A stretch of DNA of 46,703 nucleotides. Source: an uncultured Flavobacteriales bacterium. GTDB lineage: Bacteria; Bacteroidota; Bacteroidia; Flavobacteriales; BACL11. A program made the position numbers and the translations under genes. The notes under the pieces are model-generated. The model saw nothing but the letters and a program-made list of their open reading frames with translations, made no database searches and was not told the DNA's origin. Shown piece by piece: positions 30,131-46,703 of the stretch (position 1 is the stretch's first letter; every line of letters begins with the position of its first letter). The stretch is from assembly GCA_905478555.1 (NCBI GenBank), contig CAJQIZ010000003.1, forward strand, positions 1 to 46,703. The letters run 5' to 3'.

Positions 30131-30161
30131 CTGTAAAATTTAAAGTTGTTTTTCAAGCTAA

Positions 30162-30169
30162 CAAATATA
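30162..30169 (-). promoter_or_regulatory. -7 box for the M43 protease gene
   Basis: Minus-strand TATATTTG, 31 bp before the ATG. No TTG at the usual distance. Confidence 0.5.
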
Positions 30170-30229
30170 GTGCTTTCTTATTTAAAAAGAAGTAAGAAAC
30201 TTAATTTTACAAATAAACTTTAAATGAGT

Positions 30230-31084: not shown

Positions 31085-31088
31085 TTAA

Positions 31089-31193
31089 CTATTTTTCAGA
31101 GTTAATTGCGACCCCTTCACATTGCTGAGAATAAATACCGCAAGAAGAAACAAAAAACATATTAGCAATAAGTAAAACAAATAAATATTTCAT
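31089..31193 (-). CDS. 34-residue lipoprotein upstream of lipA
   Basis: Very small gene. It encodes MKYLFVLLIANMFFVSSC, a clean lipoprotein signal with C18, then GIYSQQCEGVAINSEK. I recall similar tiny lipoproteins ending near a CEGVA motif in other Flavobacteriales, but cannot check this here. It has the second-best promoter match in the window (31209-31240) at a sensible distance and is followed by lipA 4 bp later. Function unknown. The lipobox, the promoter and the close spacing together make a real gene likely. Confidence 0.7.
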   Translation of the reverse strand: MKYLFVLLIANMFFVSSCGIYSQQCEGVAINSEK

Positions 31194-31208
31194 GAATTAA
31201 ATTTTAAG

Positions 31209-31240
31209 CAAAAATACAAAATAAAAATATTATAAATCAA
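31209..31240 (-). promoter_or_regulatory. Promoter for the small lipoprotein and lipA
   Basis: Minus strand TTG (plus CAA 31238-31240), 21 bases, then TATTTTTG (31209-31216), 15 bp before the ATG at 31193. Confidence 0.65.
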
Positions 31241-31260
31241 AATAAAACAACTTCAGTTTT

Positions 31261-31275
31261 GTTATCTTTGATAAC
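31261..31275 (+). promoter_or_regulatory. -7 box within a palindrome upstream of ung
   Basis: GTTATC-TTT-GATAAC is a perfect 6-bp inverted repeat. Its middle contains TATCTTTG (31263-31270), a TAnnTTTG box 27 bp before the ung ATG. Confidence 0.5.
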
Positions 31276-31297
31276 TTAAAATTATCTGCCTAAAAGA

Positions 31298-31972
31298 ATG
31301 CTTATAAGAAATGAATTAGAAAAATCTTGGGAAAACAAAATGAAGAAAGAATTTGAAAAAGATTACTTCTCTATTTTAAATCAATTTTTAAAACAAGAAT
31401 ATAAAGAACAAACTATATTTCCTGAGAAAAAATTAATTTTTAATACTCTAAACTCCACACCTTTCAACAAAGTGAAAGTTGTGATTATAGGTCAAGACCC
31501 ATACCATGGAAAAGGACAAGCTCACGGACTTTCATTTTCTGTTACAGAAGGAATAAAAACACCTCCATCTTTAGTTAATATTTTTAAAGAAATAGAAAGT
31601 GATTTAAAAATAAACAACCATGGAAAAGGAGATTTAACAAAATGGGCAAAACAAGGAGTACTACTATTAAACGCTACTTTAACAGTTAGAGAAAATACTC
31701 CAGGCTCGCACCAGAATAAAGGATGGGAGCAATTTACAGACCAAATAATCTCAACAATATCTGAAGAAAGAAAAGATCTTGTGTTTTTACTTTGGGGAAA
31801 ATTTGCACAAAAAAAAACCAAATTAATAGACAAAAACAAGCACCACATACTAATGAGTTCTCACCCCTCCCCTCTTTCCTCTTACAGAGGATTTTTAGGA
31901 TGTAAACATTTTTCGGAATGTAATAATATTTTGAAAAGAGAAAATAAAACTGAAATAAACTGGCAACTATAA
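31298..31972 (+). CDS. ung: Uracil-DNA glycosylase
   Basis: Removes uracil from DNA in base excision repair. Family 1 signatures: IGQDPYHGKGQAHGLSFSV with catalytic D67, LLLNATLTV, FLLWGKFAQKK and the SSHPSPLS loop near residue 187. 224 aa, normal. Its stop overlaps the ATG of the Omp85-like gene (TAATG), so the two are coupled although not functionally linked by any known pathway. Confidence 0.96.
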   Translation: MLIRNELEKSWENKMKKEFEKDYFSILNQFLKQEYKEQTIFPEKKLIFNTLNSTPFNKVKVVIIGQDPYHGKGQAHGLSFSVTEGIKTPPSLVNIFKEIESDLKINNHGKGDLTKWAKQGVLLLNATLTVRENTPGSHQNKGWEQFTDQIISTISEERKDLVFLLWGKFAQKKTKLIDKNKHHILMSSHPSPLSSYRGFLGCKHFSECNNILKRENKTEINWQL

Positions 31973-33348
31973 TGAAAAAAATCCTTCTCATATTTTATAT
32001 TTTTTATGGAACCCTCTCCTTCTCTCAACAGAATGAAGGTTATTTTTACATACAAATATCTAATAATGAAACTCTAAATTATAAAGTAGATAACAATGGA
32101 TATGTGAAAATTAAAATTTCTGATATTGAGAAATATCTCAGTAATTATGTTGTCTACTACGAGAATAACGGATATCCATTTGCAGAAGTCAAACTAGAAA
32201 ACATACGAGAAAACACAGCAGAACTAGTTGTCAATAAAGGAGAAGATTACACAGTAGATTCTTTAGTTATTTATGGGAACTCAAAACTAACAGAAAAACA
32301 ACTTTTTAAATTAATTGGAATAGAAAAAGGGGAAGTATACAAGCAGGAAAAGCTAGATAAAATAGATGACAAAATATCTAATATAGGATACTTGAAACAA
32401 ACAAAGGAACAATCCTCTGTTTTTTATAAAAACACTAACCATATTTATTTTTACTTAGAAAAAGTAAAGAATAACTTTATAGATGGAATAATCGGATTTT
32501 CCTCATCAGAAGAGGAGATAAAACTAAATGGATATGTAAACACAAAACTGAAAAACACATTAAATTATGGAGAAGAAATAGATATAAACTGGAGATCGGA
32601 ACAAGACAAGTTTCAGAAACTAGAAAGTTCAGTAACGGTTACTCATCTGTATAAAAACATAGGAGCGGCTTACAATTTAGACATCTACAGACAATACGTA
32701 AACTTCAGCAATACAAACTACGAACTCAGCATACTGAAAAGCAAAAACAGAAATCAATTTGGTATTTCCTTTCAATCCAAACAATCTGTATCAGAACAAA
32801 GTGAACAACAAAATACAGAAACAAAAAATATAGGAATTAAATATCAGTTCCAGAACAGAAATACACACTTAATAGGTTCCTCTTATTTTGGTAATCGTAA
32901 AACAGAAAACAACATACATCCATACCAAAAATACTCTATAGAAGCTACATATAGTTATCCGTTTTCAGATAGACTCTATTCTTCTTTTAAGAATATTAGC
33001 AAAATAATTATATCAGAAAACCTACAAGATAGTGAATTACTTTTTTTTGGAGGAGCTAGTAGTTTAAACGGATTTAAAGAAGACCAATTTAAAGTAAATA
33101 ACTACAACTTGAGCAGTATTAATATAAATTATGATTTAGACAAAAGTAGCTCTACAAATATATTTTTCCAACAAGCCTACTATGAATCAGAAGAGCTACA
33201 AAAATGGGCACATTCTGTTGGAATAGGCTTTGATTTGAAAAGTAAATCGGGAACAATATACCTGAAATATGCAGTTGGATTTAATGAACAACAAGAATTC
33301 AACATTGAGAATGGAATTATACATATAGGAGTAAAAAATACTTTTTAA
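31972..33348 (+). CDS. Omp85-like outer-membrane protein (POTRA plus barrel)
   Basis: Signal peptide residues 1-18 (LLIFYIFYGTLSFSQ). Residues about 25-160 contain POTRA-like units (YYENNGYPFAEVKLENI, YTVDSLVIYGNSKLTEKQL); YGNSKLT is the typical strand-turn. The barrel follows, with GGASSLNGFKEDQF as the Omp85 loop motif in which the usual Arg of RGF or RGY is Asn. It ends in GVKNTF with a terminal aromatic. At 458 aa it is smaller than BamA and TamA, so it is a short family member; substrate unknown. Coupled to ung by a one-base overlap. Confidence 0.8.
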   Translation: MKKILLIFYIFYGTLSFSQQNEGYFYIQISNNETLNYKVDNNGYVKIKISDIEKYLSNYVVYYENNGYPFAEVKLENIRENTAELVVNKGEDYTVDSLVIYGNSKLTEKQLFKLIGIEKGEVYKQEKLDKIDDKISNIGYLKQTKEQSSVFYKNTNHIYFYLEKVKNNFIDGIIGFSSSEEEIKLNGYVNTKLKNTLNYGEEIDINWRSEQDKFQKLESSVTVTHLYKNIGAAYNLDIYRQYVNFSNTNYELSILKSKNRNQFGISFQSKQSVSEQSEQQNTETKNIGIKYQFQNRNTHLIGSSYFGNRKTENNIHPYQKYSIEATYSYPFSDRLYSSFKNISKIIISENLQDSELLFFGGASSLNGFKEDQFKVNNYNLSSININYDLDKSSSTNIFFQQAYYESEELQKWAHSVGIGFDLKSKSGTIYLKYAVGFNEQQEFNIENGIIHIGVKNTF

Positions 33349-33426
33349 CAAATTTAAAATTAGGATTGTACAACCCTTTTTTATTTGTTATTTTGAAGGA
33401 TAATTTTCAACCTAAATTTAAGAAAT

Positions 33427-34611
33427 ATGGAATATGTAGTATTAGCAGTTTTATTAATAGGATTCGGATCCTTATACTTTAAAAAAGAAGATGTAACGGA
33501 GGATAATTCTGAAGAGGATAAAGAGAGAATATCGGAATTAGAACAAGCTCATTCTGCAAAAGATGAAATTATAAAAAACTTACAAAACACTGCAGATGTA
33601 TTGAATGCTAAACTAAGTTCATTTGATCAAACTAAAACAGAAAAAACACAAATTGCAGAAAGGCTAAAGTTAATTGAGGGGGAAAGAAATAATCTGAAAA
33701 ACGAAAATACAAAACTTAATAAAGAGGAAGAAAATAGAAATGAAACTTTAAGGAAATCTGTAGAGTCCACAAATACACTTCAAAATAGTTTGAAAACAGA
33801 AATTGCAAGAGTAAATGATGAAAGAGTAAAAGAAACAGAGCAGAAATTTGAGAAAATGAAACTCACTTGGGGAGAACATGAAAAAGAGGTAGAAAATCAT
33901 TTAAGAAAAATATGTAACAATCATGTTATAGAATATATTGGACAGGAAGATTTCCCATATCCTAGAAACAAACCTGACAATTCCATTGAAATAATGGATC
34001 AACTTATAGTATTTGACGCAAAAAGCCCGGCAAATGATGATTTAACTAACTTCCCAAAATACATTAAGTTACAAACTGAAAATCTGAAAAAATACGCAAA
34101 ACACGATAATGTAAAAAAGGATTTATTTTTAGTAATCCCATCTAACACACTTTCTGTAATTAATCAATTTTCTTACAATATTGGCGACTATAATGTATAT
34201 ATTATTACTAAAGATGCATTAGAGCCAATTATTTTAAGCTTAAAGAAAATAGAAGAATATGAGTTTGCAGATAAATTAAGTCCAGAAGAAAGGGATAATG
34301 TTTGCAGAGTAATTGGGAAATTTGCTCACACTACAAAAAGAAGAATTCAGATTGATCAATTTTTTGCAGAAGAATTTTTAGATACACTTCAGAAAGCAAA
34401 ACATTTACCAAGTGATATTTTAGAAAGTGTAATTCAGTTTGAAAATGCGGAGAAACTAAACCCTCCAATGGAAAAAAGAAAAAAACAAATACTTACAAAA
34501 GATTTGAAAGAAAAGTCAGATCAAATAAAAAAGGAAATTGAATTAAGGGAAATTCCTGAAATTCAAGCCAAAATAACTTTTAAAGAAAAAGATGAGGGAG
34601 AACAAAAATAA
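33427..34611 (+). CDS. rmuC: RmuC-family protein (putative DNA recombination nuclease)
   Basis: RmuC limits rearrangement at inverted repeats in E. coli; the domain is PD-(D/E)XK-like. The N-terminal residues 2-17 are hydrophobic and could anchor it in the membrane. Residues about 25-155 form a coiled coil. The core begins near 160: NHVIEYIGQEDFPYPRNKPD, then MDQLIVFDAKSPAND, where D and the DAK motif fit the nuclease core. 394 aa. The last 20 bp overlap rlmB. Confidence 0.88.
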   Translation: MEYVVLAVLLIGFGSLYFKKEDVTEDNSEEDKERISELEQAHSAKDEIIKNLQNTADVLNAKLSSFDQTKTEKTQIAERLKLIEGERNNLKNENTKLNKEEENRNETLRKSVESTNTLQNSLKTEIARVNDERVKETEQKFEKMKLTWGEHEKEVENHLRKICNNHVIEYIGQEDFPYPRNKPDNSIEIMDQLIVFDAKSPANDDLTNFPKYIKLQTENLKKYAKHDNVKKDLFLVIPSNTLSVINQFSYNIGDYNVYIITKDALEPIILSLKKIEEYEFADKLSPEERDNVCRVIGKFAHTTKRRIQIDQFFAEEFLDTLQKAKHLPSDILESVIQFENAEKLNPPMEKRKKQILTKDLKEKSDQIKKEIELREIPEIQAKITFKEKDEGEQK

Positions 34612-35347
34612 CGATTACGAAAAAAATTCTGTTTTTGGAATAAGAGCAATTATTGAAGCAATTGAAGCCGGTAAAACAATTGACAAACTGTTTATACAAA
34701 AAGGTTTGCATAATGATTTGTTTGCTGAATTATGGAAACTAGTCCGTTTAAGAAGAATAAACTACAAACATGTTCCGATTGAAAAAATAAATAGATTAAC
34801 AAGAAAGAACCACCAAGGTGTTTTTGCGTTTATATCGCCTATCGACATTCATAATATTGAGGATATTATTCCTCAAATATACGAACAAGGAAAAACTCCA
34901 CTTATCTTGGTTTTAGATGGAATAACAGATGTAAGAAACTTTGGAGCCATTGCCCGAACTGCAGAATGTGCTGGCGTAGATACTATTTTAATTCCAGAAC
35001 AAAGTGCAGCTGCTATAAATGCAGATGCCGTAAAAACCTCTGCTGGAGCTTTGCACAAAATACCTATTTGTAGAACTTGGAATTTAAAAATGAGTCTTCA
35101 GTTTTTAAAAGATAGCGGATTGCAATTGGTTAGTTGCACCGAAAAAACTACTAAAAGCTTGTACGATCCAGATTTCACACATCCAACCGCAATCATCATG
35201 GGATCGGAAGATGACGGAGTATCTCCAGAATATTTAAAGATGTCGGATTGCAAAGCTAAAATACCAATGAGTGGGAAAATATCTTCCTTAAATGTATCAG
35301 TAGCATCCGCTATTATTGTTTATGAAGCTATAAGACAGAGAGGATAA
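34592..35347 (+). CDS. rlmB: 23S rRNA 2'-O-methyltransferase of the TrmH/SpoU family
   Basis: Methylates the 2'-OH of a guanosine in 23S rRNA (G2251 in E. coli RlmB) through a knotted SPOUT fold. The N-terminal SpoU substrate-binding part has SVFGIRAIIEAIEAGKTIDK and KNHQGVFAFI. The catalytic domain has LDGITDVRNFGAIARTAECA, VKTSAGALHKIPI, IIMGSEDDGVSPE and PMSGKISSLNVSVASAI, all family motifs. 251 aa. The assignment to RlmB rather than another TrmH paralogue is likely but not proven. Confidence 0.9.
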   Translation: MRENKNNDYEKNSVFGIRAIIEAIEAGKTIDKLFIQKGLHNDLFAELWKLVRLRRINYKHVPIEKINRLTRKNHQGVFAFISPIDIHNIEDIIPQIYEQGKTPLILVLDGITDVRNFGAIARTAECAGVDTILIPEQSAAAINADAVKTSAGALHKIPICRTWNLKMSLQFLKDSGLQLVSCTEKTTKSLYDPDFTHPTAIIMGSEDDGVSPEYLKMSDCKAKIPMSGKISSLNVSVASAIIVYEAIRQRG

Positions 35348-35349
35348 AT

Positions 35350-35457
35350 CTATAATATTATTTCATAAACATCATTATAAGTTCTCTGTATGTTTTTATA
35401 CAAAAAACCACCATCTTCCAAAGCGTCATCTACCAAGTCAAATGAAGTACAATACAA
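35350..35457 (-). other. Possible 35-codon minus-strand reading frame after rlmB
   Basis: An open frame from TTG (35457) with acidic, protein-like composition (SFDLVDDALEDGGFLYKN then DVYEIIL) that occupies the gap between rlmB and the MmcQ gene. It has no clear start signal, lies antisense to the leader of the MmcQ gene, and is not recognised. It may be a small gene, a remnant or chance. Confidence 0.2.
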
Positions 35458-35472
35458 ATAATTAGTTAAATT

Positions 35473-35480
35473 TAAGTTTG
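35473..35480 (+). promoter_or_regulatory. -7 box for the MmcQ/YjbR gene (apparently leaderless)
   Basis: TAAGTTTG with five bases before the ATG at 35486, so the transcript should start at or beside the ATG. Confidence 0.5.
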
Positions 35481-35485
35481 CATTT

Positions 35486-35842
35486 ATGAACCTTGACCAA
35501 TTCAGACAATATTGTCTACACTTTAAAGTAGAAAAAGAAGATCTTCCTTTTGATGAAAATACTTTAGTATTTAAAGTAATAGGGAAGATGTTTTACCTTT
35601 GTAATATGTTGGAGTTTGAGTTTTGTAACTTAAAATGTGATCCTGAAAAATCATTAGAACTCAGAGAATACTTCCCAGTAGTAACTCCAGCTTGTCACAA
35701 GAGTAAAAAACATTGGAACTCAGTAAACTTCAATGGGGAACTAAATGATAATCAAATAAGAGAATGGATTTCGGATTCCTATAATTTAGTAGTAGAAAAA
35801 ATGTCAAAGAAGTTAAAAAAAAATTATCAGAAAAAAGGATAA
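35486..35842 (+). CDS. MmcQ/YjbR family protein
   Basis: Small cytosolic protein of the MmcQ/YjbR (CyaY-like double-wing) fold, some of which bind DNA; the role is unknown. 118 aa with the family pattern: FRQYCLHFKVEKEDLPFDE, TLVFKVIGKMFYLC, NLKCDPEKSLELRE, PACHKSKKHWNSVNFNG and IREWISDSYNLVVEKM. Expressed from its own -7 box five bases from the ATG, suggesting a leaderless mRNA. Followed by a stretch of 170 bp with no gene before the next small gene. Confidence 0.88.
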   Translation: MNLDQFRQYCLHFKVEKEDLPFDENTLVFKVIGKMFYLCNMLEFEFCNLKCDPEKSLELREYFPVVTPACHKSKKHWNSVNFNGELNDNQIREWISDSYNLVVEKMSKKLKKNYQKKG

Positions 35843-35991
35843 AATAAAACTGATTTTCAAAAACTAAAAATGTACCTCCGAACATAAACTATATTATTTT
35901 CAGAAAGATTGTAATAAAGAATTTATAATGAAAATGAGTATCACAGAATACAAAAAATTAATTTTAAGTTTAAGGAATAAGTAAGATTTAT

Positions 35992-35999
35992 TACTTTTG
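35992..35999 (+). promoter_or_regulatory. -7 box for the 43-residue protein
   Basis: TACTTTTG, a TAnnTTTG match 14 bp before the ATG at 36014. Confidence 0.5.
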
Positions 36000-36013
36000 A
36001 AAAAAAATAAATA

Positions 36014-36145
36014 ATGTTTAAACTATTAGCTAAAATTAACAAAATTATACTACCTTCTATGATTAATAAAGATTTATCAAAACTAGGTTCTCTTCAGAAA
36101 CTAATTATAGGATATAGATATTGGGTAACTAAAAATGCTTTATAA
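36014..36145 (+). CDS. 43-residue basic protein, conserved-looking in Flavobacteriales
   Basis: Small gene, too short for usual cut-offs. The product begins MFKLLAKINKIILPSM and ends with LIIGYRYWVTKNAL. It is basic, helical and without a signal peptide. I recall proteins of this length with the same frame (FKLLAKxNKxxLPS near the start and WRYYVTKxAL at the end) in many Flavobacteriales genomes, some misnamed SsrA-binding protein. No function is known. A -7 box sits 14 bp upstream. Confidence 0.75.
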   Translation: MFKLLAKINKIILPSMINKDLSKLGSLQKLIIGYRYWVTKNAL

Positions 36146-36210
36146 TAATCGTTTTATAGATAAGTAATTTCTAATTTACAAATAATAGAGAGTACAATAA
36201 TGAGAAATCT

Positions 36211-36912
36211 TTATTTTCTTCCTTTCATTATCTGTTCGTAAGATTCTTTTACTACCAAAAACTTCTCCTCAGCTAACTTCTTAATATCATCACTTACTCC
36301 AATCAACTTGTCGGGATGGAATTTAACAGCCATTTTCCTGTACGCCTTCTTCACCTCAGTATCTGTAGCATCTTTTGAAATTCCTAGAATGGTATACCAT
36401 TTTTCAGAATTACTTCCCTTGGACAAGAACATGGACTGAATAGATTCAAAATCATAAGAATTAATATTCATATAAGTAGCAATTCTTTTTATTTGTTCTA
36501 CTTCATTTGGGTGAATTTCATTATCAGCAGCTGATACTCCAAACAAAAAATGAATTATTTCTAAACGAGAGGAATGATTTATATGTGAGTTTAATTGTAA
36601 ACAAACTTGTCTGAGTTTAGAGCTATAATCCTGTTTATTCAAATTATTAAACATCCTAAAGTATTCATTCGATTTTTTTGTTCCAAATGTATTGGTAAAG
36701 AATTTTTTCACATACTCCAATTCTGATTTCAACACTTTTCCATCTGCTTTTATTACAACTGAAGAAAGTATAAGTAAGGATATTTCGAATGCAGTTTTAT
36801 TATCCACTTTAGAAGCAAAAACATTTTTCCCTACATAATAACCAATAATTCCACCAATTGGACCAGCAAAAAACCATCCTGCAGCCGCTCCAATCCATTT
36901 TCCGTTCGACAT
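36211..36912 (-). CDS. TerB-like plus DnaJ-domain protein (DjlA-like)
   Basis: Co-chaperone candidate for DnaK. The N-terminus ([20 protein letters not shown]) is glycine rich and hydrophobic, possibly membrane associated as in DjlA. Residues about 40-160 are a TerB-like helical domain ([40 protein letters not shown]). The J domain occupies the last 65 residues, with [20 protein letters not shown] and the HPD triad near residue 197, which stimulates DnaK ATPase. 233 aa. Own -7 box upstream. Confidence 0.9.
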
Positions 36913-36926
36913 ATATATATTTTTTA

Positions 36927-36934
36927 CAAATTTA
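36927..36934 (-). promoter_or_regulatory. -7 box for the TerB-DnaJ gene
   Basis: Minus-strand TAAATTTG, 14 bp before the ATG at 36912. Confidence 0.5.
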
Positions 36935-36958
36935 CAATTTTATTCAACAACTATCAGA

Positions 36959-37162
36959 ATGGTGAAAAAAAAAGAATCCGAAAGTTCTCTTTTATCTATT
37001 AAATAACTCTATCGAAATACGGAAAAAGGGATTCGTTTAACTCCAATAATTATTGAATTCAGCTTGTGGGGGAATTATAATATGCGAGAATTTAATGAAA
37101 TAGATGACATTGAAGGCTTGAATTGTTATAAGTATAAAAAACGAGCGTTATATTCATGTTAA
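36959..37162 (+). pseudogene. Remnant tail of an HxlR-like winged-helix regulator
   Basis: One frame reads MVKKKESESSLLSIK, stop (37004-37006), then 51 codons containing TEKGIRLTPIIIEFSLWG and ending KKRALYSC. The LTEKG-x(4)-PI-x(4)-WG pattern is the C-terminal winged-helix end of HxlR-type regulators. The helix-turn-helix core is absent, so only a fragment remains. The last codons run into the direct repeat at 37147. Whether the first 15 codons belong to the same ancestor is unclear. Confidence 0.45.
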
Positions 37163-37196
37163 ATAATTTAAATAACATATGTTATATGCACGTTAA
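37147..37196. repeat. Imperfect 16-bp direct repeats with palindromes before the recombinase
   Basis: GTTATATTCATGTTAA (37147-37162) and GTTATATGCACGTTAA (37181-37196) differ at two positions and are 34 bp apart. Between them are the perfect palindrome ATAACATATGTTAT (37172-37185) and an inverted pair ATGTTA/TAACAT (37156-37161, 37173-37178). The recombinase ATG is 46 bp downstream. Possibly recombinase-binding or attachment sequence; not proven. Confidence 0.5.
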
Positions 37197-37242
37197 TTTT
37201 TATAAAATACCATAAATACAGGTCAATAATCCTCATTCAAAA

Positions 37243-38202
37243 ATGAAAAATTCAACCTTATTATTGGAATATTTAAGCGAATTTATTGCAAATTCAGCCA
37301 CAAGAAGAGTCAAAGGATATGGTACTGTTGGATTGGCTCATAATACTATTAGAACCTATAAATCGCTTTATATGATCACAGTGGAGTATGAGTTGGAGAA
37401 AGCTCAGTAATTATTTCTGGATGGAATCGATAAAAATACCGCTGAGTCATTCACTCGATTTCTAAAAATAGAGAAACAATACAGCGATAATTACTGTGGT
37501 CAATTGCTGAAATTATTTAAGATTATTTTAAGAGATGCCCAGAAAAGTGGCTTTGAGATTCACCCTTATTCTAATTATATAGAATCCTTTAAACAGAAAA
37601 GTTCAGATCGAATTATCCTTTTTTTGAATCCAGCAGAAATAAAAGTGTTGAAGAGATTAGAGCGGATACCAAGTGAGTTAGAAGATAGCTACAAATGGTT
37701 ACTGATTGGACTTTCTATTGGACAAAGAGTTTCGGATTTATTAAGTCTTAATTCTAGTAATATTAGAAAAGCTAACAATGGACTCTATATCGATATCATC
37801 CAGCAAAAAACAAAAAAGGCTGTTACCATTGGGGTGGCAGATCCGCTAGTGATTGACCTTTTAGAAAGTGAATTTCCAAAAGTACTTTCTCAAGAAGCTT
37901 TTAATAAGCACATAAAAATGATTTGTAAAATTGCAGGAATTGATGAAGTAGTTCGTGGTTTTAAGAACAATCCTAAAACTAGAAGAAAGGAAGTGTCATC
38001 AGCTCCAAAGTATGAGTTTGTAACCTCTCATATTATGAGAAGATCTTTTGCTTCTAATTATTATGGGAAAATTGAAACACCGCTGTTGATGAACATAACT
38101 GGACACACCAAAGAGAGTACGTTTTTAACTTATATTGGTACTCATCAGAATAAGGATGCGTTGGCAGATTTTTTTATGCAAAAAGCGAGTGTTATTTGGT
38201 AG
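37243..38202 (+). pseudogene. Tyrosine recombinase/integrase with in-frame stop
   Basis: Reading from ATG 37243, codons 1-55 encode a SAM-like core-binding region (LLLEYLSEFIANSATRRVKG, HNTIRTYKSLYMITVEYEL). Codon 56 is TAA (37408-37410), and the same frame then runs on without break to 38202. The catalytic domain keeps all six expected residues: R162 in GQRVSDLL, K189, H263 and R266 in HIMRRSFASN, H288 in GHTKEST and Y297 in TYIGTHQ. With CAA at codon 56 it would be a 319 aa enzyme. Without readthrough, only a C-terminal piece from the TTG at 37504 could be made. Converges with a frameshifted small gene. Confidence 0.85.
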
Positions 38203-38489
38203 GATCTGGGTCTCTATCCATAAGACCTTGCTTCTCTATTTCTTTTAATTGTTTAATAGTAAATTGATCTCTAACTGATTTTGTTTTTGGAAAGATATAG
38301 TTAGAAAGGGTAACAAAGACTTTTACCCGTTCTGTTTTGGTGAGTTTTTCTTGGTTTACCAAAAGATCATCCAGCACTTTTTCATAGAGCAGCTCCATCT
38401 TTTCTTTAATAGAAAGTTCATCTTTTTTTTGCGGGACCCCGTTTGGATTTTTTGCCTGCTTTCTTTGCTGATTTTGGATTGAATGGCAT
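38192..38489 (-). pseudogene. Small basic gene next to the recombinase, broken in an A8 run
   Basis: From ATG 38489 the frame reads MPFNPKSAKKAGKKSKRGPA then KKR and a stop. If the run of eight A on the minus strand (plus 38423-38430) were seven, it would join the downstream frame through KKDELSIKEK to the segment MELLYEKVLDDLLVNQEKL and on to the end at 38192, a protein of about 98 aa. The intact part starts at 38398. The N-terminal half is Lys/Gly/Pro rich, like the tails of some phage or island proteins. Function unknown. Sequencing error in the homopolymer is possible. Confidence 0.6.
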
Positions 38490-38514
38490 ACTTAGTGAAA
38501 TTAAAAAGTGAATT

Positions 38515-38522
38515 CAAATTTA
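38515..38522 (-). promoter_or_regulatory. -7 box for the small gene beside the recombinase
   Basis: Minus-strand TAAATTTG, 25 bp before the ATG at 38489. That a promoter remains supports the longer reading of this gene. Confidence 0.4.
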
Positions 38523-38581
38523 GATAAAATAATTTATAGCTGGCTTAAAATTTGTTCTGAAACATTTTTACAGAAAATAAT

Positions 38582-39298
38582 TCATGATTTATTCTTTTTA
38601 GAAATTTTCATATATAAAACTTGAAGAATAAACTGTGGTGTAGATATTAAATTCCTCTTAGCCAATCTTATAGGTTCATGCAGAAAACGTGGTAACCATT
38701 CTAAACCATATTTTATCCAAAATTTAGAAGGACGGCTGACAGTCCCAGAATAAAAATCAAATACAGCTCCTATTGAACAAATTAATTTCGCATTTATATT
38801 TATATTATTATTATAAACCCATTTTTCTTGTTTGGGAGCAGTCATACCTACAAATAAAATGTCAGATTCTACTTTATTAATTAATGAGCATATTTTCACA
38901 TTTTCTTCATTTGTGAAATTATTTTTATAAGGCGGTGAATAAGAATGTACAGTAACATTAGGAAATTCTTTGGAGGCACGTTTTGTAATCATTTTTAGAG
39001 TATTATCTGAAGCCCCAAGAAAAAAACATGATCCCTTCTTATTATTTAAATCATTCATTAAGTGCAGAAATAAGTCATATCCTGCGATTTTCTTGATTTT
39101 AGCTTTATATAATATATTTTTTGCCCAAACAACTCCAATCCCATCAGGTAATAAAACATCGGAACTTTTAAGTGCTTCAAAAAAGGATTTATCTGAATGA
39201 GACATTAGATAACTATGAGGATTAAGAGTATTAATTATCCTATGATGATTAAAATTAATCTGATTTAAATTTTTTGTAGTTACTTGATTTATTAGCAT
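38582..39298 (-). CDS. WecG/TagA/CpsF-family glycosyltransferase (GT26)
   Basis: Transfers a sugar such as N-acetylmannosaminuronate or N-acetylmannosamine to a lipid-linked acceptor during surface-polymer assembly. 238 aa with family marks: DVLLPDGIGVVW, KIAGYDLFLHLM, GSCFFLGASDNTLKMI, VHSYSPPYKN, ILFVGMTAPKQEKWV and CSIGAVFDFYSGTVSRPSKF, then GLEWLPRFLHEPIRLAKR. Complete and apparently functional. Its first 31 residues recur in a truncated copy at 39661-39852. It sits at the end of the polysaccharide locus, separated by about 620 bp of debris from the main operon. Confidence 0.92.
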   Translation of the reverse strand: MLINQVTTKNLNQINFNHHRIINTLNPHSYLMSHSDKSFFEALKSSDVLLPDGIGVVWAKNILYKAKIKKIAGYDLFLHLMNDLNNKKGSCFFLGASDNTLKMITKRASKEFPNVTVHSYSPPYKNNFTNEENVKICSLINKVESDILFVGMTAPKQEKWVYNNNININAKLICSIGAVFDFYSGTVSRPSKFWIKYGLEWLPRFLHEPIRLAKRNLISTPQFILQVLYMKISKKNKS

Positions 39299-39557
39299 TT
39301 ATTATTTATAAATATGAACTTATGATTATAATCAATTGTTTAAATAATGTTATCACAATTTACTTTAATTTGAAAGTGCAAATTAAAAAATAAAAAACTA
39401 CAAATAATGAAACAAATGTTAGAAAGAATTTATTTCTTAAAAATTTAATGTCACCATCCATTTCTAATTTTTTAAATTAATTAATATTACAATAATACTA
39501 ATAATATATTACTCCTAAAGTTCTAATCGGTAAACTACATAAAAATTAGGTAAACAA
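39299..39557. other. Non-coding stretch in the polysaccharide locus
   Basis: AT-rich sequence between the intact WecG/TagA gene and the debris. I see no gene, RNA or clear repeat. Together with the truncated copy and the gap to 39918 it makes about 620 bp without a complete gene. Confidence 0.5.
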
Positions 39558-39852
39558 CTAGTTAGAATCTAACTGCATGGATTCACACAATTCTAACATG
39601 TCTTCTAGTTTAAGCTTACCTGAAGAGCTGTTAGAAGTTACAATTACGTTTCTATCACTATCAAAAACTAACTTCAGTTGGAAATGTTCCTTTAAAAGTA
39701 ACTCCAGTTTTACCCTTTACATCTATCTCAAAAGAACTACTACTAGAAGATTGAGCAGTTAAATAACTATGAGGATTAATAGTATTAATAATTCTATGAT
39801 CATCAAAGTTAATCTTATCAAAACTTTTCGTAATTATTTGCTTTATTAACAT
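39558..39852 (-). pseudogene. Truncated duplicate of the WecG/TagA gene joined to foreign debris
   Basis: From ATG 39852 the first 31 residues match the intact WecG/TagA gene at 21 positions (shared INF, HRIINT, NPHSYL). Similarity ends near 39757, where a serine run (SSSSSSFEIDVKG) begins; that frame stops at 39661. In the next frame, 39716 to 39558 encodes a 52-residue protein-like tail (LLLKEHFQLKLVFDSDRNV, SGKLKLEDMLELCESMQ) that I do not recognise. So the 5' end of one gene is fused to the 3' end of another, with a frame change. Neither part is complete. Confidence 0.65.
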
Positions 39853-39862
39853 TTATTTTATA

Positions 39863-39870
39863 CAAATATA
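39863..39870 (-). promoter_or_regulatory. -7 box before the truncated WecG/TagA copy
   Basis: Minus-strand TATATTTG, 10 bp before the ATG at 39852. The intact copy has similar upstream sequence but its box is degenerate there. Confidence 0.45.
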
Positions 39871-39918
39871 TTATCAAGAATCAATCTGAATAATATAATT
39901 AATAAAAAACTATAGTTC

Positions 39919-41025
39919 TTATCTAATTTTAGTTAAAATTTCAGTCATATTTTGTTCAAAATGAGATAATGTATATTCACTTTCATATTTTTTTCTACTT
40001 GCTCTTCCTAATTTCTCTCGAAGCTTTGAAGACTTAATAAGTTTTTCTATTTTTTCTACTAGATCATCAACATTATTTTTTGGAACAATATAACCAGTTT
40101 TCCCATCTATAATTAAATCTGGTACACCTCCTTCAAAAGTAGAAATAATTGGTAGACTATATTGCATTGCTTCCAAAATAACTAATGGAACACAATCCTC
40201 TAGCGTTGGATGCACAAAAATATCAGCATTTTTAAACTCTAACACTTTAGATTGGTTATATTTTTTGCCTGCATAATGAACTACATCTAATATGTTAAGT
40301 TGATTTGCAAATCTATTAAATTTTTCTTCTGTAAAATCACCTATATCACCTACAAAAGTACAATTAAAATTAAGTTTTTTCTGCTTTAGTTTTTGACAGG
40401 ATTTTAATAATATATTAATGCCCTTAGACTCTATCAAATTGGATAAAAATAAAATTTTGATATTATCATTACTTTTATTAATCTCAATATTAGGGTTTGA
40501 GTTTAAGTCTGGAATACCATTTATACAATAATAAATTTTTTGTTCAGATACATATTTTTTAATATCTGAATAAAGATATTTAGATAATAAAATAACATTA
40601 GCATTATTAAACATCCATCGATAAATCAAATCATCAATAAATTTATTTTCATTATTTTTTACACCTTTGTTATGAAAATGATAAACTAACTTAATGTTAA
40701 ACAGTTTAATTAATAGTATTATTGGAATATCTTTGTATAAGCCTATCCCATGCGCAGTTGGTGTCAGATAACAAAGATTAGGTCTAAATGAATATAAATG
40801 ATTATAAACATTAATTATCATCTGTAGATATCGGAAAATTTTAGTGAAGCTATTTTTACCTATTTCGTCAACATCTATTGAGATACCCAGATTGATATAT
40901 TTGGTTTGAAAAGTATTATTTACAATTTTACTATTTTTAATTTGATTTCCCATCATAGCTGCACCATGTATTGGGGGAGGGTAATGTAAAATAAACAAAA
41001 TTTTCTTTTTTGAATTAGATTTCAA
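39919..41025 (-). CDS. Glycosyltransferase family 4 (GT-B)
   Basis: Adds a sugar from a nucleotide-sugar donor to the growing repeat unit at the cytosolic face of the inner membrane. N-terminal KKILFILHYPPPIHGAAMMG is the acceptor-side start of GT4 enzymes. The donor half has IKILFLSNLIESKGINILLK and FVGDIGDF, then DIFVHPTLEDCVPLVILEAM, with the E-x7-E pair, and STFEGGVPDLI. 368 aa. Last gene of the polysaccharide operon, 32 bp after the sulfotransferase gene. Sugar and linkage unknown. Confidence 0.9.
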   Translation of the reverse strand: MKSNSKKKILFILHYPPPIHGAAMMGNQIKNSKIVNNTFQTKYINLGISIDVDEIGKNSFTKIFRYLQMIINVYNHLYSFRPNLCYLTPTAHGIGLYKDIPIILLIKLFNIKLVYHFHNKGVKNNENKFIDDLIYRWMFNNANVILLSKYLYSDIKKYVSEQKIYYCINGIPDLNSNPNIEINKSNDNIKILFLSNLIESKGINILLKSCQKLKQKKLNFNCTFVGDIGDFTEEKFNRFANQLNILDVVHYAGKKYNQSKVLEFKNADIFVHPTLEDCVPLVILEAMQYSLPIISTFEGGVPDLIIDGKTGYIVPKNNVDDLVEKIEKLIKSSKLREKLGRASRKKYESEYTLSHFEQNMTEILTKIR

Positions 41026-41057
41026 TTTATATTGATAATTTTTAATAACAATACTTG

Positions 41058-41750
41058 CTATTGATTTATTGAACTATGATTAACTAAACTAGAGTACATT
41101 TCGTTAGCAAGTTTGTAATTTTTATTTTTTTTAATTTCAGAGATTAATTGAGACTTTTCTTTATCTCTTTTATTTGAAGGAAGTCCAAAAACTTTCTCAT
41201 ATCCCTTGCCATACTTTTCAATCTCCTCTTGCTTTAAATGATTTTTTATTTTTAATATTGTTTCTTTTGTATTATCATGATACTGAAAATTAGTACCCAT
41301 TTTATTATTCAACTTTTTTATTATAGATGGAAAGTCATTTATTGTACTTGTAAAATCACTGATTATCGCATGCGTTTTATATTTAATAACTATTTGATGA
41401 AACTTAATATAGTACAATATAGCATCTTGAATTGTATATTTTGAATCACGAATCATTAAAGATGATATTGAATCTAGAGGATTTCTTATTAGAAAAATGG
41501 CAGGTGTTTTGTATTTTTTTGAAAAAATGATTTGATAAGGCAAATGCACATGAGAGGCAATTTCTAAATCTTGATTCGAGTGTTTAAAGCTAGCAACAGC
41601 AAAAGTATTCCCACATCTAGGAAAACCTTCTATTACAATATTTGTATCTTCTCTAACAAGATTTTGATGTACTTTGGAAAACATCTTGTAAATAGATTTA
41701 AAAATTGTATACTCAGAGAGTACTAATTTTAGTTTTAGTTTTGTTCTCAT
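41058..41750 (-). CDS. Sulfotransferase-family protein
   Basis: Probably transfers sulfate from PAPS to a polysaccharide or glycolipid. The 5'-phosphosulfate loop is IEGFPRCGNTF at residues 40-50, in place of the more usual GxPRSGTT, and FLIRNPLDSISSLMIRD around 97-113 is the 3'-phosphate-binding segment with the expected Arg and Ser. 230 aa, a compact form. No signal or transmembrane segment, so it acts in the cytosol before export. The start overlaps the GT2 stop (ATGA). Its place suggests a sulfated surface polymer. Confidence 0.8.
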   Translation of the reverse strand: MRTKLKLKLVLSEYTIFKSIYKMFSKVHQNLVREDTNIVIEGFPRCGNTFAVASFKHSNQDLEIASHVHLPYQIIFSKKYKTPAIFLIRNPLDSISSLMIRDSKYTIQDAILYYIKFHQIVIKYKTHAIISDFTSTINDFPSIIKKLNNKMGTNFQYHDNTKETILKIKNHLKQEEIEKYGKGYEKVFGLPSNKRDKEKSQLISEIKKNKNYKLANEMYSSLVNHSSINQ

Positions 41751-42574
41751 AATTTATATTTTATCATTATAAAAAGTTCGTAAATAAATCTAATACTTTT
41801 ATAAAAAAAATACTGGCTAGCTCGAATTTTATGCCAAAACGAGATGTAATTTTTGATTGATTTGCGTGTATTATAATCTTCTTCATTATTAAATAACTGT
41901 ATCAATTCAAGTGAAACTAAATCAGGATTCTCAGGGATTCTTTTAGTGGATGTATCTCTATTAAATATTGTAAGTGGTTTATTAATATAACCCCATGATG
42001 TTAAAGAAGCAATTTTTGCCCACAAGAGTAAATCCTCTCCACTTTTAATTTTTTCTGAAAAGAGTTTAACCTCTATAAGTAAACTTCTTTTTATACATAC
42101 TGCGCTTGAATGGATGGGAGGTGAGTTATATGCTGCAAAACTAAAATAATCTGTAATTATATTATTTTTTATATACTCTGTCTTTACAATTGGATTAATT
42201 GATTTAACATTTTTATTTTTATGAAAATAATTGGAGGCAATGGCACGTAATTCTTGATTATCAATATATCTTTTTTTTATTTCAAATAAGAAATTATTTT
42301 CCCATTCATCATCAGCATCTAAAAAAGCAATCCAATCATTTTGTGCTAATTTTATACCTTTATTTCTTGCTGAGGATACTCCATTATTTTTTTGAGTAAC
42401 AATACGAATTAAATTGTTGTTAAGATTTTGCACTAACTTTTCTGAGCCATCATTAGAGCCATCATTAATGACTATAATTTCATTTGGCAAAACCGATTGA
42501 TTTAAAATTGATTTAATAGAGTTAATAATGGTAATCTTCTTATTATATAAGGGGATGACTACTGTTATTTTCAT
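41747..42574 (-). CDS. Glycosyltransferase family 2 (GT-A)
   Basis: Inverting transferase for repeat-unit synthesis. N-terminal MKITVVIPLYNKKITIINSI and IIVINDGSNDGSEKLV form the nucleotide-binding half, and WIAFLDADDEWENNFL (about residues 81-96) contains the metal-binding DxD. HSSAVCIKRSLL and SGEDLLLWAKIAS (ED motif) form the acceptor side. 275 aa. It overlaps the polymerase gene by 32 bp and the sulfotransferase gene by 4 bp. Donor and acceptor not determined. Confidence 0.92.
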   Translation of the reverse strand: MKITVVIPLYNKKITIINSIKSILNQSVLPNEIIVINDGSNDGSEKLVQNLNNNLIRIVTQKNNGVSSARNKGIKLAQNDWIAFLDADDEWENNFLFEIKKRYIDNQELRAIASNYFHKNKNVKSINPIVKTEYIKNNIITDYFSFAAYNSPPIHSSAVCIKRSLLIEVKLFSEKIKSGEDLLLWAKIASLTSWGYINKPLTIFNRDTSTKRIPENPDLVSLELIQLFNNEEDYNTRKSIKNYISFWHKIRASQYFFYKSIRFIYELFIMIKYKL

Positions 42575-43742
42575 AATTGTATTTTAATATTGTTTTGTTT
42601 TGCTTATTAATAGACATTAACATTCCAGCAATAGCATAGAAATAAATAATGAAACTGAAAGTCATTCTTAAAATGTTTTCTGAAAACATAAATAACATCA
42701 TTGGCAATGTTAATGAAAAAAGTGTTATTATTAATAGTCTTTCTGTACGGGAATGAATTCTTATAGACAGAAAATATCTAAATTGAATGAAATACGAAAT
42801 AAATAAAAATAAAAGACCAAATAATCCATAATTAACTAAAATCTGTAAGTAGTCATTGTGAGCTTCTTGAATATTATTGAAATTATCTTTTAAAATAAAG
42901 TAATCAGCCCTAAGGCCATTTCCAAAAATAGGTTTTTTATAAAACTCGTTAATTAAAAGAAAATTAATACTTTTTCTCCCACTGGTATTAATGTTATCAC
43001 TATCAATACTAATCTCATTTAAATTTCCTTCACCATTAAAAAACATCTTCTCTTGTATGACATTAAGGTTGAAAATATAAATCAATAAGGGAATAAATAG
43101 TAACAATAGCTTTATTTTATTATTAGAAAAAATTCTGTATGTATGTAAAAATGGCAATAATAACATAATAGCAATAGCTGTTCTTGTAGCTGCCAGCGTA
43201 GGAATTGTAAGTATTAAAATATAGTATATAAGATATTTTTTTTTATTAGTATCATAAAATAAAGTTAAACATATCGTCCCTCCAATAACAGCAAGGGGTC
43301 CATAAGCTGATGGGCCAAAACCTAATATACCATACCTTAAAAAAGAAAATAAAGAATTAGATAAGATGATAATAATAATAAGATTTCTGAAATACTTTAA
43401 GATTTTGAGAAGAACTTGCTGATTGTATTGTAACCCACCAGCAACATATCCTACTATCAATGGTAGAGTAAATTGTAAAGTTGATTGAAGGCCTATAAAT
43501 GAAAAATCATATATTAGATATATAAATAAATATAAAACCAAAGGAATCCAAATTTTATAAGAAAAGAAAGATTTTTTAATTTTGAAGATAATGTAATAGA
43601 GAGAAACAATAAAAACTAGTATCCAGGCATATCCAGACAGATTAAAATTAAAAAATACACTAGGTATAGGTATTATAAAATTTAAACAACCAATCAAACT
43701 TGAGAGCACTAAAAACCTGTAGTATTTTAATGTATCTTTCAT
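42543..43742 (-). CDS. O-antigen ligase/polymerase-like membrane protein (Wzy/WaaL type)
   Basis: Integral membrane protein with about ten or more hydrophobic segments and little else, 399 aa. The long periplasmic loop contains KPIFGNGLRADYFILKDNF and NIQEAHNDYLQILVNYGLFG; a conserved GxG then HNxxLQ pattern is the hallmark of the Wzy_C/WaaL family, which polymerises repeat units or ligates them to lipid A core. Which reaction it does cannot be told; in the middle of a capsule- or EPS-like operon, polymerase is more likely. Overlaps the GT2 gene by 32 bp. Confidence 0.87.
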   Translation of the reverse strand: MKDTLKYYRFLVLSSLIGCLNFIIPIPSVFFNFNLSGYAWILVFIVSLYYIIFKIKKSFFSYKIWIPLVLYLFIYLIYDFSFIGLQSTLQFTLPLIVGYVAGGLQYNQQVLLKILKYFRNLIIIIILSNSLFSFLRYGILGFGPSAYGPLAVIGGTICLTLFYDTNKKKYLIYYILILTIPTLAATRTAIAIMLLLPFLHTYRIFSNNKIKLLLLFIPLLIYIFNLNVIQEKMFFNGEGNLNEISIDSDNINTSGRKSINFLLINEFYKKPIFGNGLRADYFILKDNFNNIQEAHNDYLQILVNYGLFGLLFLFISYFIQFRYFLSIRIHSRTERLLIITLFSLTLPMMLFMFSENILRMTFSFIIYFYAIAGMLMSINKQNKTILKYNYENNSSHPLI

Positions 43743-43752
43743 TAGTATTTAA

Positions 43753-44904
43753 TTAAATATCAAACAATCTTCTATATAAATTTCTATTAATTTGCTCAAA
43801 TTTTTTGAATGAGAATTTTTTTATTATTCTTATTTTCGCTAAATTACCCAGAGATTCTTTAAGTTTTTGATTCATAATGAACATTAACATATATTTTTTT
43901 AAATCTTCGGTATTTTCTGGTTCAAATAAAAAACCAGTTATATTGTGTTTTATTAATTCTTTTAATCCAAACAAATTACTTGCAATAACTGGCTTTTCCA
44001 TCGCCATAGATTCTGCTGCGGATAATCCAAAACCTTCAAACCTAGATGAGACAAGCACAACGTCCATTATAACCAGTAATTTCATTGCTTTTTTCCAATA
44101 AGTCTCACCGTAAAAAATAACATATTCACTTATTTGTAAGTCTTTACATAATTTTTTTAATTTATCTTCCTCTTTACCACCTCCAACAATTAATAGAATT
44201 GAATTATGTTTTGCATCAATTACTTTTTTAAATGCTTTTATGGCAATATCAATTCCTTTTTCATTACTTAATCTAGATACCATTCCAAAAACTATACTTT
44301 CATCATTAATTTTTAATTTTTGTCTTTCTTTTAAAACATCCACATTATTTTTAATGCTTTCTAATTGTTTTACATCTATTGAATTATAAATTGTAAAATG
44401 TTTTGGCAATTTTTTATTTTGAGGTATTTCTGAGAACTGAATACCCGACCCAAACCAGCTTATTTCAGCATTTTTAGAAACTAAAATAACATGTTTACAC
44501 AAAAGGCTTGATATTCTCAAAAATAGCTTTGCTTTTATTCCATGCGATTTTGTGTATGGCTGATGAACGGTAGTTATAATATTTCTAACGCCTGCTATAC
44601 GACCAGCAATAATCGGCAACATTCCAGGAGCCATATACTGTACATGTACTAGATCTGGTTTAATTTTTTTAAATAATAGTTTTAGTTTTTTTATGAACTC
44701 TAAAGAAGAAATGGTTCTATTTAGTTTTAAAAGTATAACCTCACAATTATTTTTTTTAAACTCCTCAACAATAGAAATATCATACTCAAAATAACAAATA
44801 ATGGTAGATTGATGGCCTAAATTGGTAAGTACCTTAACCAATTGTAAGCTTTGCATTTCGGTTCCTCCTTTTAATAAACAGGGTATTGTAATTAATAAAT
44901 TCAT
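43753..44904 (-). CDS. Glycosyltransferase family 4 (GT-B), second copy in the locus
   Basis: Cytosolic nucleotide-sugar transferase. N-terminal MNLLITIPCLLKGGTEMQSL has the GGTE loop typical of GT4. PDLVHVQYMAPGMLPIIAGR follows, then VFGMVSRLSNEKGIDIAIKA, LLIVGGGKEEDKL and VVLVSSRFEGFGLSAAESMA, with the E-x7-E donor-binding pair. 383 aa. The start overlaps the FemAB-like gene by 4 bp. It shares the general fold with the other GT4 in the locus but is divergent in sequence, so it probably makes a different linkage. Confidence 0.92.
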   Translation of the reverse strand: MNLLITIPCLLKGGTEMQSLQLVKVLTNLGHQSTIICYFEYDISIVEEFKKNNCEVILLKLNRTISSLEFIKKLKLLFKKIKPDLVHVQYMAPGMLPIIAGRIAGVRNIITTVHQPYTKSHGIKAKLFLRISSLLCKHVILVSKNAEISWFGSGIQFSEIPQNKKLPKHFTIYNSIDVKQLESIKNNVDVLKERQKLKINDESIVFGMVSRLSNEKGIDIAIKAFKKVIDAKHNSILLIVGGGKEEDKLKKLCKDLQISEYVIFYGETYWKKAMKLLVIMDVVLVSSRFEGFGLSAAESMAMEKPVIASNLFGLKELIKHNITGFLFEPENTEDLKKYMLMFIMNQKLKESLGNLAKIRIIKKFSFKKFEQINRNLYRRLFDI

Positions 44905-45968
44905 AGAAAATCTGATTTTATATTAACTATTTTATTTTTTATTTTAGAAAGCAAAGCTTTAGATTGATACTCTATTTTGAAAAGTTTCTGTATTTCTGGA
45001 GCCCAACCAGTTTTATAATTTTCTTTACCTCTTAAGTGATCAAATATTTCTAGTTTTAATTCTATGGCATGATTTACTAAAAATAACAAATGAACTTTAC
45101 CTGGTGAGTATTTTTGCCAAATACCATTGATGGCTGGCATGTAATAATAAAAAGTTTTTTTATCAACAAAGCCTAAATGCCAGCTAATTACTTCATCATC
45201 CACCTTAAGTGCAGAGAAATGAACAATACCTTTAATCAATCCACAATTAATAATATTTTCATGAAAAGATGGGGCTTTGTAAGCATTTGGCCACCTTCTA
45301 CAATGTTCTTTCATAAATTTTGAAAAATTAGATGATGAGAAAGAATCCTTACTGTATGACACCATAGTTAGTGTACCTTTTTCATTAAGCCTTCTAACTT
45401 GCCGTCTTAAATCACCTCTTAATTTCGTATTTAAAGTTAATATATACTGATTGTCATCTAAAAAATTAGATATAACCGTAAAAGGTGCAATATCATTTTC
45501 CTCAAGAACTAAGTTTGAATCACCTTTTCTTAATCCATTTATATATATTTTATCAAAAATAATTTTCTCTTTTAGCTCATCTATTAAGTTTTTTAAAAAT
45601 AATGCATATCCTTTTGATTTTTTATTTTCTGAAATTATTAATGGGTCATGATAATCAAAATCTGAATGACCAACAGGTATTATAAGTTTCTGAAAAGCAT
45701 TTTTCCAATTACGTTGCCATAAAACTAAGGGTAAGAAAATAGTAGTATCTTCATTCTTAGCAATACAAAAAACTGGTTTTAGATTACGTATTGGCCTGTA
45801 TGTATCAAGCCAAGCAATACAAAGATTAGGATTGGAAAAAACATTACTATTTATCATGTTTTCATAAAAAATCAGCCATTTTTTCTGAAATTTTTTTGAA
45901 TAGATAGTTTCCCAATCTGTAATCAATTCAATATTGTAATTATTTAAATTATCCATTGAATTTCTCAA
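44901..45968 (-). CDS. FemAB/BioF2-like GNAT acetyltransferase
   Basis: GNAT-fold protein of the CelD/BcsL group, common in exopolysaccharide loci, that probably acylates a sugar or amino sugar. The N-terminal third includes PVGHSDFDYHDPLIIS. The C-terminal half has LRGDLRRQVRRLNEKG, then HFSALKVDDEVISWHLGFVD (beta-bulge region of the acceptor fold) and YSPGKVHLLFLVNHAIELKL ending in FDHLRGKENYKTGW. 355 aa, usual size. Overlaps the PIG-L gene by 20 bp and the GT4 gene by 4 bp. Substrate unknown. Confidence 0.8.
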   Translation of the reverse strand: MRNSMDNLNNYNIELITDWETIYSKKFQKKWLIFYENMINSNVFSNPNLCIAWLDTYRPIRNLKPVFCIAKNEDTTIFLPLVLWQRNWKNAFQKLIIPVGHSDFDYHDPLIISENKKSKGYALFLKNLIDELKEKIIFDKIYINGLRKGDSNLVLEENDIAPFTVISNFLDDNQYILTLNTKLRGDLRRQVRRLNEKGTLTMVSYSKDSFSSSNFSKFMKEHCRRWPNAYKAPSFHENIINCGLIKGIVHFSALKVDDEVISWHLGFVDKKTFYYYMPAINGIWQKYSPGKVHLLFLVNHAIELKLEIFDHLRGKENYKTGWAPEIQKLFKIEYQSKALLSKIKNKIVNIKSDFL

Positions 45969-46703
45969 TTATTTCAAATTCTTTAGAAAATGGATGTATC
46001 ATAGATTTTGGAAGCATTCCACTCCAAGGCAAACCATCTTGCGAATAAGCATTTAAATAAATCTCTATCAATTTTTGTTTTTCACTCAGTTCTTCTGTAA
46101 CATCTATTTTATTTAATTTTTTAAAATTCAGTTTTAAAAGGTGCCAGGGTTTTAAATGATACCATGTCCAAATCCAGTAGAACCATAACTCGCTTTTAAA
46201 AGTGGATGTTTTTATAGCTTCCTTAGCTATTTGACTGCATGCAACATGATCAAAGGGCCAATAGTCACTTTTTGCTGTTGCAAAAATGGCGTCAGGTTTT
46301 ATAGATTCAATTTGGAGTTTAATTTTATTTACGGTTTCTTTAAATCTATTTTCTTCAGAAAAAGGGACTTCTCCATCCGGCAAATGTAATCTTGAAATAT
46401 TTTCGGGATTAATATTTAGTTTATTTATTACTTGTTCCGACAATCTTATACGTTGTTTTTTTATTTCATTTTTATTTGCCGAAGCACCCGAATTTTTGCC
46501 ATCGGTTAAATAGGTAATATAAACCTGTCCATTATTTTTAAGAGTTTGTAACACAAGGCCTCCTAATCCTATTATTTCATCGTCTGGGTGCGGTGCTAAA
46601 ACCAAAATAGACTTAAAACTGGTATTTCTTTTTTTTATTAATAGAATCCCAATGTTATAACTAATCCGACCAAATATATTTTTAATTAATGTTTTCAAAT
46701 ATA
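45949..46703 (-). CDS. PIG-L family deacetylase, 5' end probably outside the window
   Basis: Zn-dependent deacetylase of N-acetylglucosaminyl groups or similar sugars. The metal site HPDDE is at about residues 37-41, in ILVLAPHPDDEIIGLGG. DYWPFDHVACSQIAKEA holds the second His (DHVA). The only in-window start is TTG at 46698; the frame remains open to the edge at 46703, so the true start is likely upstream. Length at least 249 aa. First visible gene of the polysaccharide operon; paired with the FemAB-like gene, it suggests a deacetylation and re-acylation of one sugar. Confidence 0.85.
   Translation of the reverse strand, partial: YLKTLIKNIFGRISYNIGILLIKKRNTSFKSILVLAPHPDDEIIGLGGLVLQTLKNNGQVYITYLTDGKNSGASANKNEIKKQRIRLSEQVINKLNINPENISRLHLPDGEVPFSEENRFKETVNKIKLQIESIKPDAIFATAKSDYWPFDHVACSQIAKEAIKTSTFKSELWFYWIWTWYHLKPWHLLKLNFKKLNKIDVTEELSEKQKLIEIYLNAYSQDGLPWSGMLPKSMIHPFSKEFEIIEKFNG

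Follow-up and report, generated by a model that had tools for sequence, protein, structure and literature searches.

A chimeric scar beside wecG in an uncultured Flavobacteriales bacterium, probably left by microhomology-mediated joining

Chimeric gene fragments that arise by microhomology-mediated illegitimate recombination are a known kind of sequence. The feature described here, a scar upstream of an intact wecG gene in an uncultured Flavobacteriales bacterium, resembles them in joining pieces of unlinked loci at short overlaps; it differs in holding two donor loci and two extra deletions within ~450 bp, all in one orientation. The intact neighbour is a clear member of the WecG/TagA/CpsF family (PF03808, TIGR00696; relatives of the solved structure 7mpk), whereas in the partial copy within the scar the similarity stops after residue 31 and the entire PF03808 region (residues 46–215) is missing. 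At the scale of whole polysaccharide clusters, the part of PMC4033161 drawn on here terms such clusters (e.g. that of the O-chain) replacement flexible genomic islands, finds no clear traces of illegitimate recombination at their boundaries and favours an origin by homologous recombination among closely related strains. Two genomes discussed below, G042 and G049, are like the islands described in that part of PMC4033161 in that their cluster content is wholly different beside a conserved region; the present case differs in having a scar near a cluster end, and in a module that is common to genera. Among the publications listed there was nothing specific on such a module or on the joining mechanism.

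The wecG gene and its second 5′ end

The window (the whole stretch of DNA that was analysed, 46,703 nucleotides) makes up the entire contig C3 of a draft genome that totals 1.79 Mb in 44 contigs. Along the minus strand come, in turn, a glycosyltransferase, a second wecG 5′ end (wecG′), a piece of a SPOR-domain gene, a piece of a Crp-type regulator and rhodanese locus, intact wecG and a 98-aa ORF; beyond intact wecG, a tyrosine recombinase gene lies convergent with the 98-aa ORF. The glycosyltransferase (group 1, PF00534; 39919–41025, minus strand) is the neighbour upstream of wecG′, which comprises a 17-bp leader and the first 31 codons (39759–39869, minus strand) and was recognised by both DNA and residue identity. 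Intact wecG (38582–39298, minus strand) encodes a glycosyltransferase of 238 aa that matches PF03808 at E 6e-49 over residues 46–215 (166.5 bits versus a curated cut-off of 27.4) and TIGR00696 with 138.4 bits (curated cut-off 69), and is presumed to be a working gene. A known structured RNA at the scar was ruled out, as no Rfam match reached the gathering score in 30001–46703.

When the window was compared with itself, 39759–39869 matched 39205–39315 with 83% DNA identity over 111 bp (E 5.6e-26), a match that takes in the 17 bp upstream of the ATG. The reading frame at 39852–39661 (minus strand, 63 aa) begins MLIKQIITKSFDKINFDDHRIINTINPHSYL, and 21 of its first 31 residues are those of intact WecG; 16 of the 31 codons differ, 10 of them with a changed residue. 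The catalytic domain is absent from 39661–39852. These results bear out what the earlier note had read from the sequence: the count of 21 matching residues was exact, the upstream bases are indeed alike, and the copy is diverged and partial, not a fresh tandem duplication. The note had also wanted the N-terminal match weighed against other WecG pairs, and we aligned intact WecG with 14 relatives (12 family loci and two from named genomes; the broken copy L030 of G042 and the fragment L034 of G018 were left out). Of the 31 residues of the intact protein, 13 and 14 recur in the two closest relatives (54–55% overall identity) and 2 to 9 in the remaining twelve, so that the idea that any two WecG proteins match equally well is ruled out. 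Because 21 of 31 exceeds the matches between other WecG pairs, wecG′ is, on sequence grounds, a close paralogue or allele of wecG.

WecG was found in 14 of the 52 genomes of the family, the present one included (E 1e-3), and in none of the five other genomes of the genus, all of them drafts that are 79–97% complete; the scan of named genomes returned only Confluentibacter sediminis (54%) and a Rhizobium (30%). The description of wecG as an end gene, made in the earlier note, holds for G034, where the Poly_export gene comes directly after it; in Confluentibacter sediminis a VanZ-like ORF intervenes between the two.

Sources, joins and decay of the pieces

Behind wecG′ lies the duplicated 3′ end of a SPOR-domain gene (39460–39757, minus strand; ~199 bp of coding sequence followed by ~98 bp of downstream spacer). 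It is 90.6% identical over 298 bp to L004:1839–2135 on contig C9 of the same genome, where the source is an intact 501-aa gene with the SPOR domain PF05036, and 186 bp of the fragment also match a relative in G005 at 75%. The join between wecG′ and the SPOR piece preserves the frame, but only as far as a T run that differs in length by one base; what remains is a chimeric frame of 63 aa at 39661–39852 (minus strand) made of 31 WecG residues and an in-frame fragment of the SPOR gene. Since the same T-run difference switches the frame, the 52-residue tail in another frame looked foreign, as the earlier note had called it. The search that was suggested there traced the tail back to the genome's own DNA: 47 of its residues match residues 455–501 of the SPOR-gene protein at 70%, and a phage or foreign gene as its source was thereby ruled out.

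The next piece (39323–39473, minus strand) duplicates, apart from two internal deletions, the junction at which a Crp-type regulator gene ends and a rhodanese gene starts. It aligns with L017:7232–7430 on contig C34 of the same genome in three blocks, of 32 bp (100%), 109 bp (93%) and 19 bp (100%), and has positions 39460–39473 in common with the SPOR piece. What had been described as unrelated debris thus consists of pieces from two loci of the same genome. The source on C34 carries a perfect 16-bp palindrome, TGTAACATTTGTTACA, between the regulator and rhodanese genes (L017:7311–7326), which we take to be a likely regulator site; it is intact in the source and kept in G003, and is spoilt in the window copy. 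Besides the wecG 5′ match, no further own-genome piece was found in the neighbouring 2.4 and 6.9 kb among the best 40 candidates scored, out of 113 to 232 in these DNA searches, so further weak copies could be missed. The fusion of wecG′, SPOR and Crp pieces occurs in none of the five other genomes of the genus.

Overlaps were measured at three of the five breaks; the outer two, between wecG′ and the SPOR piece and between the rhodanese piece and wecG, have no known second parent. The overlap is 9 bp at the join of the SPOR and Crp pieces and 7 and 6 bp at the two internal deletions, and random joins of the same sequences (200,000 draws each) reach 9, 7 and 6 bp at frequencies of 7.5e-5, 1.4e-3 and 4.4e-3. 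The measured joins therefore show short identical overlaps that exceed chance, as expected of microhomology. The copies also appear to have decayed. In the coding part of the SPOR piece each of the six changes that could be placed in the copy affects the protein sequence (two hit one codon), as against one of the four assigned coding changes on the source side, with one further change ambiguous (one-sided Fisher p 0.033, from small counts). When the spacer is counted in, the polarity of the entire SPOR copy is balanced (11 changes belong to the copy and 12 to the source, with 4 undecided), although the outgroup spacer hardly aligns. In the 109-bp block from C34, seven of the eight changes fall on the copy's side. 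From this bias towards copy-side and protein-altering changes, together with the frame change, we infer that the copies drift without selection.

The feature is thus probably a decayed, non-functional scar of microhomology-mediated joining. For this scar the source of each piece, the order, the common orientation and the microhomology at three of the five breaks are established, as is the finding that base changes are mostly in the copies or protein-altering. The second wecG 5′ end would have lost everything beyond its first 31 codons and become fused to the SPOR-domain gene's 3′ end; the SPOR piece would then have been joined to the Crp/rhodanese piece, and that piece to the upstream side of intact wecG. 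The joins may be the work of template switching or of microhomology-mediated end joining, whether in a single event or in several, and in this or a near lineage, and the product would have been drifting without selection ever since. On this reading the scar is plain decayed debris, if of a kind whose origin can be traced with uncommon clarity.

It could be objected that the assembler made the joins by combining reads from strains that occur together. The assembly is a draft of 44 contigs, and the contigs of G002 and G040 end within the module described below, as an assembly or strain-mixture artefact might have it. Against this, the pieces are 7–17% distant from every other own-genome copy found, two short exact ones excepted, the overlaps at the measured joins are only 6–9 bp, and the protein-changing bias of the SPOR copy is unlike the working gene of another strain. 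On balance we regard an artefact as unlikely.

The edge module and cluster exchange in relatives

On the other side of wecG the window carries a module (37114–38538) whose extent is common to another genus of the same family, as judged by DNA identity: 93.6% to G042 over window positions 37114–38538 and 91.5% to G049 over 37117–38553. It contains a broken copy of a 98-aa ORF with internal frame changes (38192–38489, minus strand) and a tyrosine recombinase gene (PF00589; 37156–38202, plus strand) that is broken by two in-frame stops. The G042 recombinase has an open frame of 348 aa, to which that of the window is 95% identical apart from its two TAA codons, and the G049 recombinase is also broken. 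Among the five other genomes of the window's own genus only G002 keeps the module; there the recombinase adjoins a TerB/DnaJ gene as it does in the window, and the contig ends inside the recombinase. The G040 contig starts inside the recombinase. The similarity between G002 and G042 stops at a palindrome, GACTACGGACTGTAGTC (L054:10313–10329 and L087:547–563), at the left end of the module, and among the loci compared this palindrome, a candidate attachment site, occurs only at that end, in G002, G040, G042 and G049; the window has no match to it with up to 3 mismatches. Taking this end and the G042/G049 breakpoint as the limits, the module is ~1.5 kb long.

To the left of the module, the TerB/DnaJ-domain gene (36210–37002) is 95.6% identical to that of G002, with neighbouring common stretches at 69–80%; the gene probably moved together with the module. 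Further left, a SpoU-type methyltransferase gene is the last gene that this part of the window (34592–36211) has in common with G001 and G005, and it is followed by a TonB-receptor-like gene in those two genomes and by YjbR-domain and TerB/DnaJ genes in the window. A 134-bp remnant of the G005 spacer persists at 35828–35960, and ~137 bp at 36009–36150 match, at 74%, stretches that adjoin unrelated genes in G003 and G002.

In a sample of 395 genomes of the order, drawn from a larger group, recombinases of at least 91% identity were found in four, the present one included, and distant ones (32–53% identity) in 27 more. The intact G042 recombinase scored 32.3 bits with NF040815 (XerA-type recombinase/integron integrase), below the cut-off of 220. 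The 98-aa protein also occurs in four of the 395 genomes, and adjoins the recombinase in G000, G042 and G049. In G134, from another family, the match (54%) has no frame of at least 70 aa that starts with ATG, and it lies between a glycosyltransferase and a Poly_export gene, with no recombinase in the gap. The protein belongs to no Pfam, NCBIfam or PHROGs family above cut-off; neither it nor the recombinase has a relative in viral contigs by the pattern method, and the recombinase has none in plasmid records at E 1e-20. Each of the four 98-aa protein loci is found where a run of polysaccharide genes ends, which suggests a link to cluster exchange.

One pair of relatives displays such a whole-cluster change. 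Over the 5.7 kb that span the module and the export genes, G042 and G049 show 94% identity, and beyond that the similarity continues at 86%; on the other side of the 98-aa ORF the two have wholly different clusters, and the last gene of the G042 cluster is a broken wecG, that of the G049 cluster a sugar transferase. The change begins beyond the 3′ end of that last gene. No internal repeats appeared when the G049 stretch, which leaves the far cluster end outside, was compared with itself, and the window and the G042 contig both end inside the cluster. The export gene next to the G042 module is present at 87% identity or more in three of the 14 genomes of that genus (G042, G049 and G040) and at 35% in three more; since it is closely kept in only those three, no empty site was found.

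It is here that the remaining proposal of the earlier note, that the repeated 5′ end serves as homology for exchanging the end genes of polysaccharide clusters, has to be weighed. The two copies are direct, in one orientation, ~0.55 kb apart and 83% identical over 111 bp, and wecG is an end gene in relatives. However, an interrupted match of 111 bp at 83% offers little for recombination to act on, only fragments and no alternative gene lie between the copies, neither wecG nor the fusion was seen in any of the five other genomes of the genus, and the change in the relatives starts on the opposite side of the last gene. We therefore consider this role very unlikely; the exchange idea agrees better with the far side of wecG than with the 5′ end.

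A function for the scar, either as a captured promoter by which the rhodanese upstream piece drives wecG or as a leader peptide encoded by the chimeric frame, appears highly improbable. The Crp-type/rhodanese spacer does lie immediately upstream of wecG in the same orientation, and there is a promoter-like match (10 of 12) at 39353–39325 (minus strand), but the region holds 14 promoter-like matches versus 12.2 expected in shuffles, the palindrome of the source spacer is spoilt in the copy, and the chimeric frame stops early. It is likewise highly improbable that the joins are products of site-specific recombination by the tyrosine recombinase next door, even though just 44 bp separate the module's end (38538) from the wecG stop (38582) and the module sits where the clusters of two other genomes diverge: the measured joins have overlaps of different sequence and thus reveal no common site, the left-end palindrome of the module is without a counterpart in the window, and the window's recombinase is broken.

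Implications for the ends of polysaccharide clusters

Read as the product of microhomology-mediated joining, the scar shows, base by base, how fragments of unlinked genes can come to form the new end of a surface-polysaccharide cluster. For cluster exchange the module is a better lead than the 5′ end of wecG, although its role is unproven. A wider hypothesis, that a module of ~1.5 kb at the ends of surface-polysaccharide clusters in this bacterial family moves between genera and fixes the breakpoint of whole-cluster exchange, the wecG′ scar being a by-product of repeated exchange, is one that we put forward as speculation and hold to be rather doubtful. If the module does set the exchange breakpoint, it would provide a testable mechanism for a question that PMC4033161, in the part drawn on here, calls unclear.
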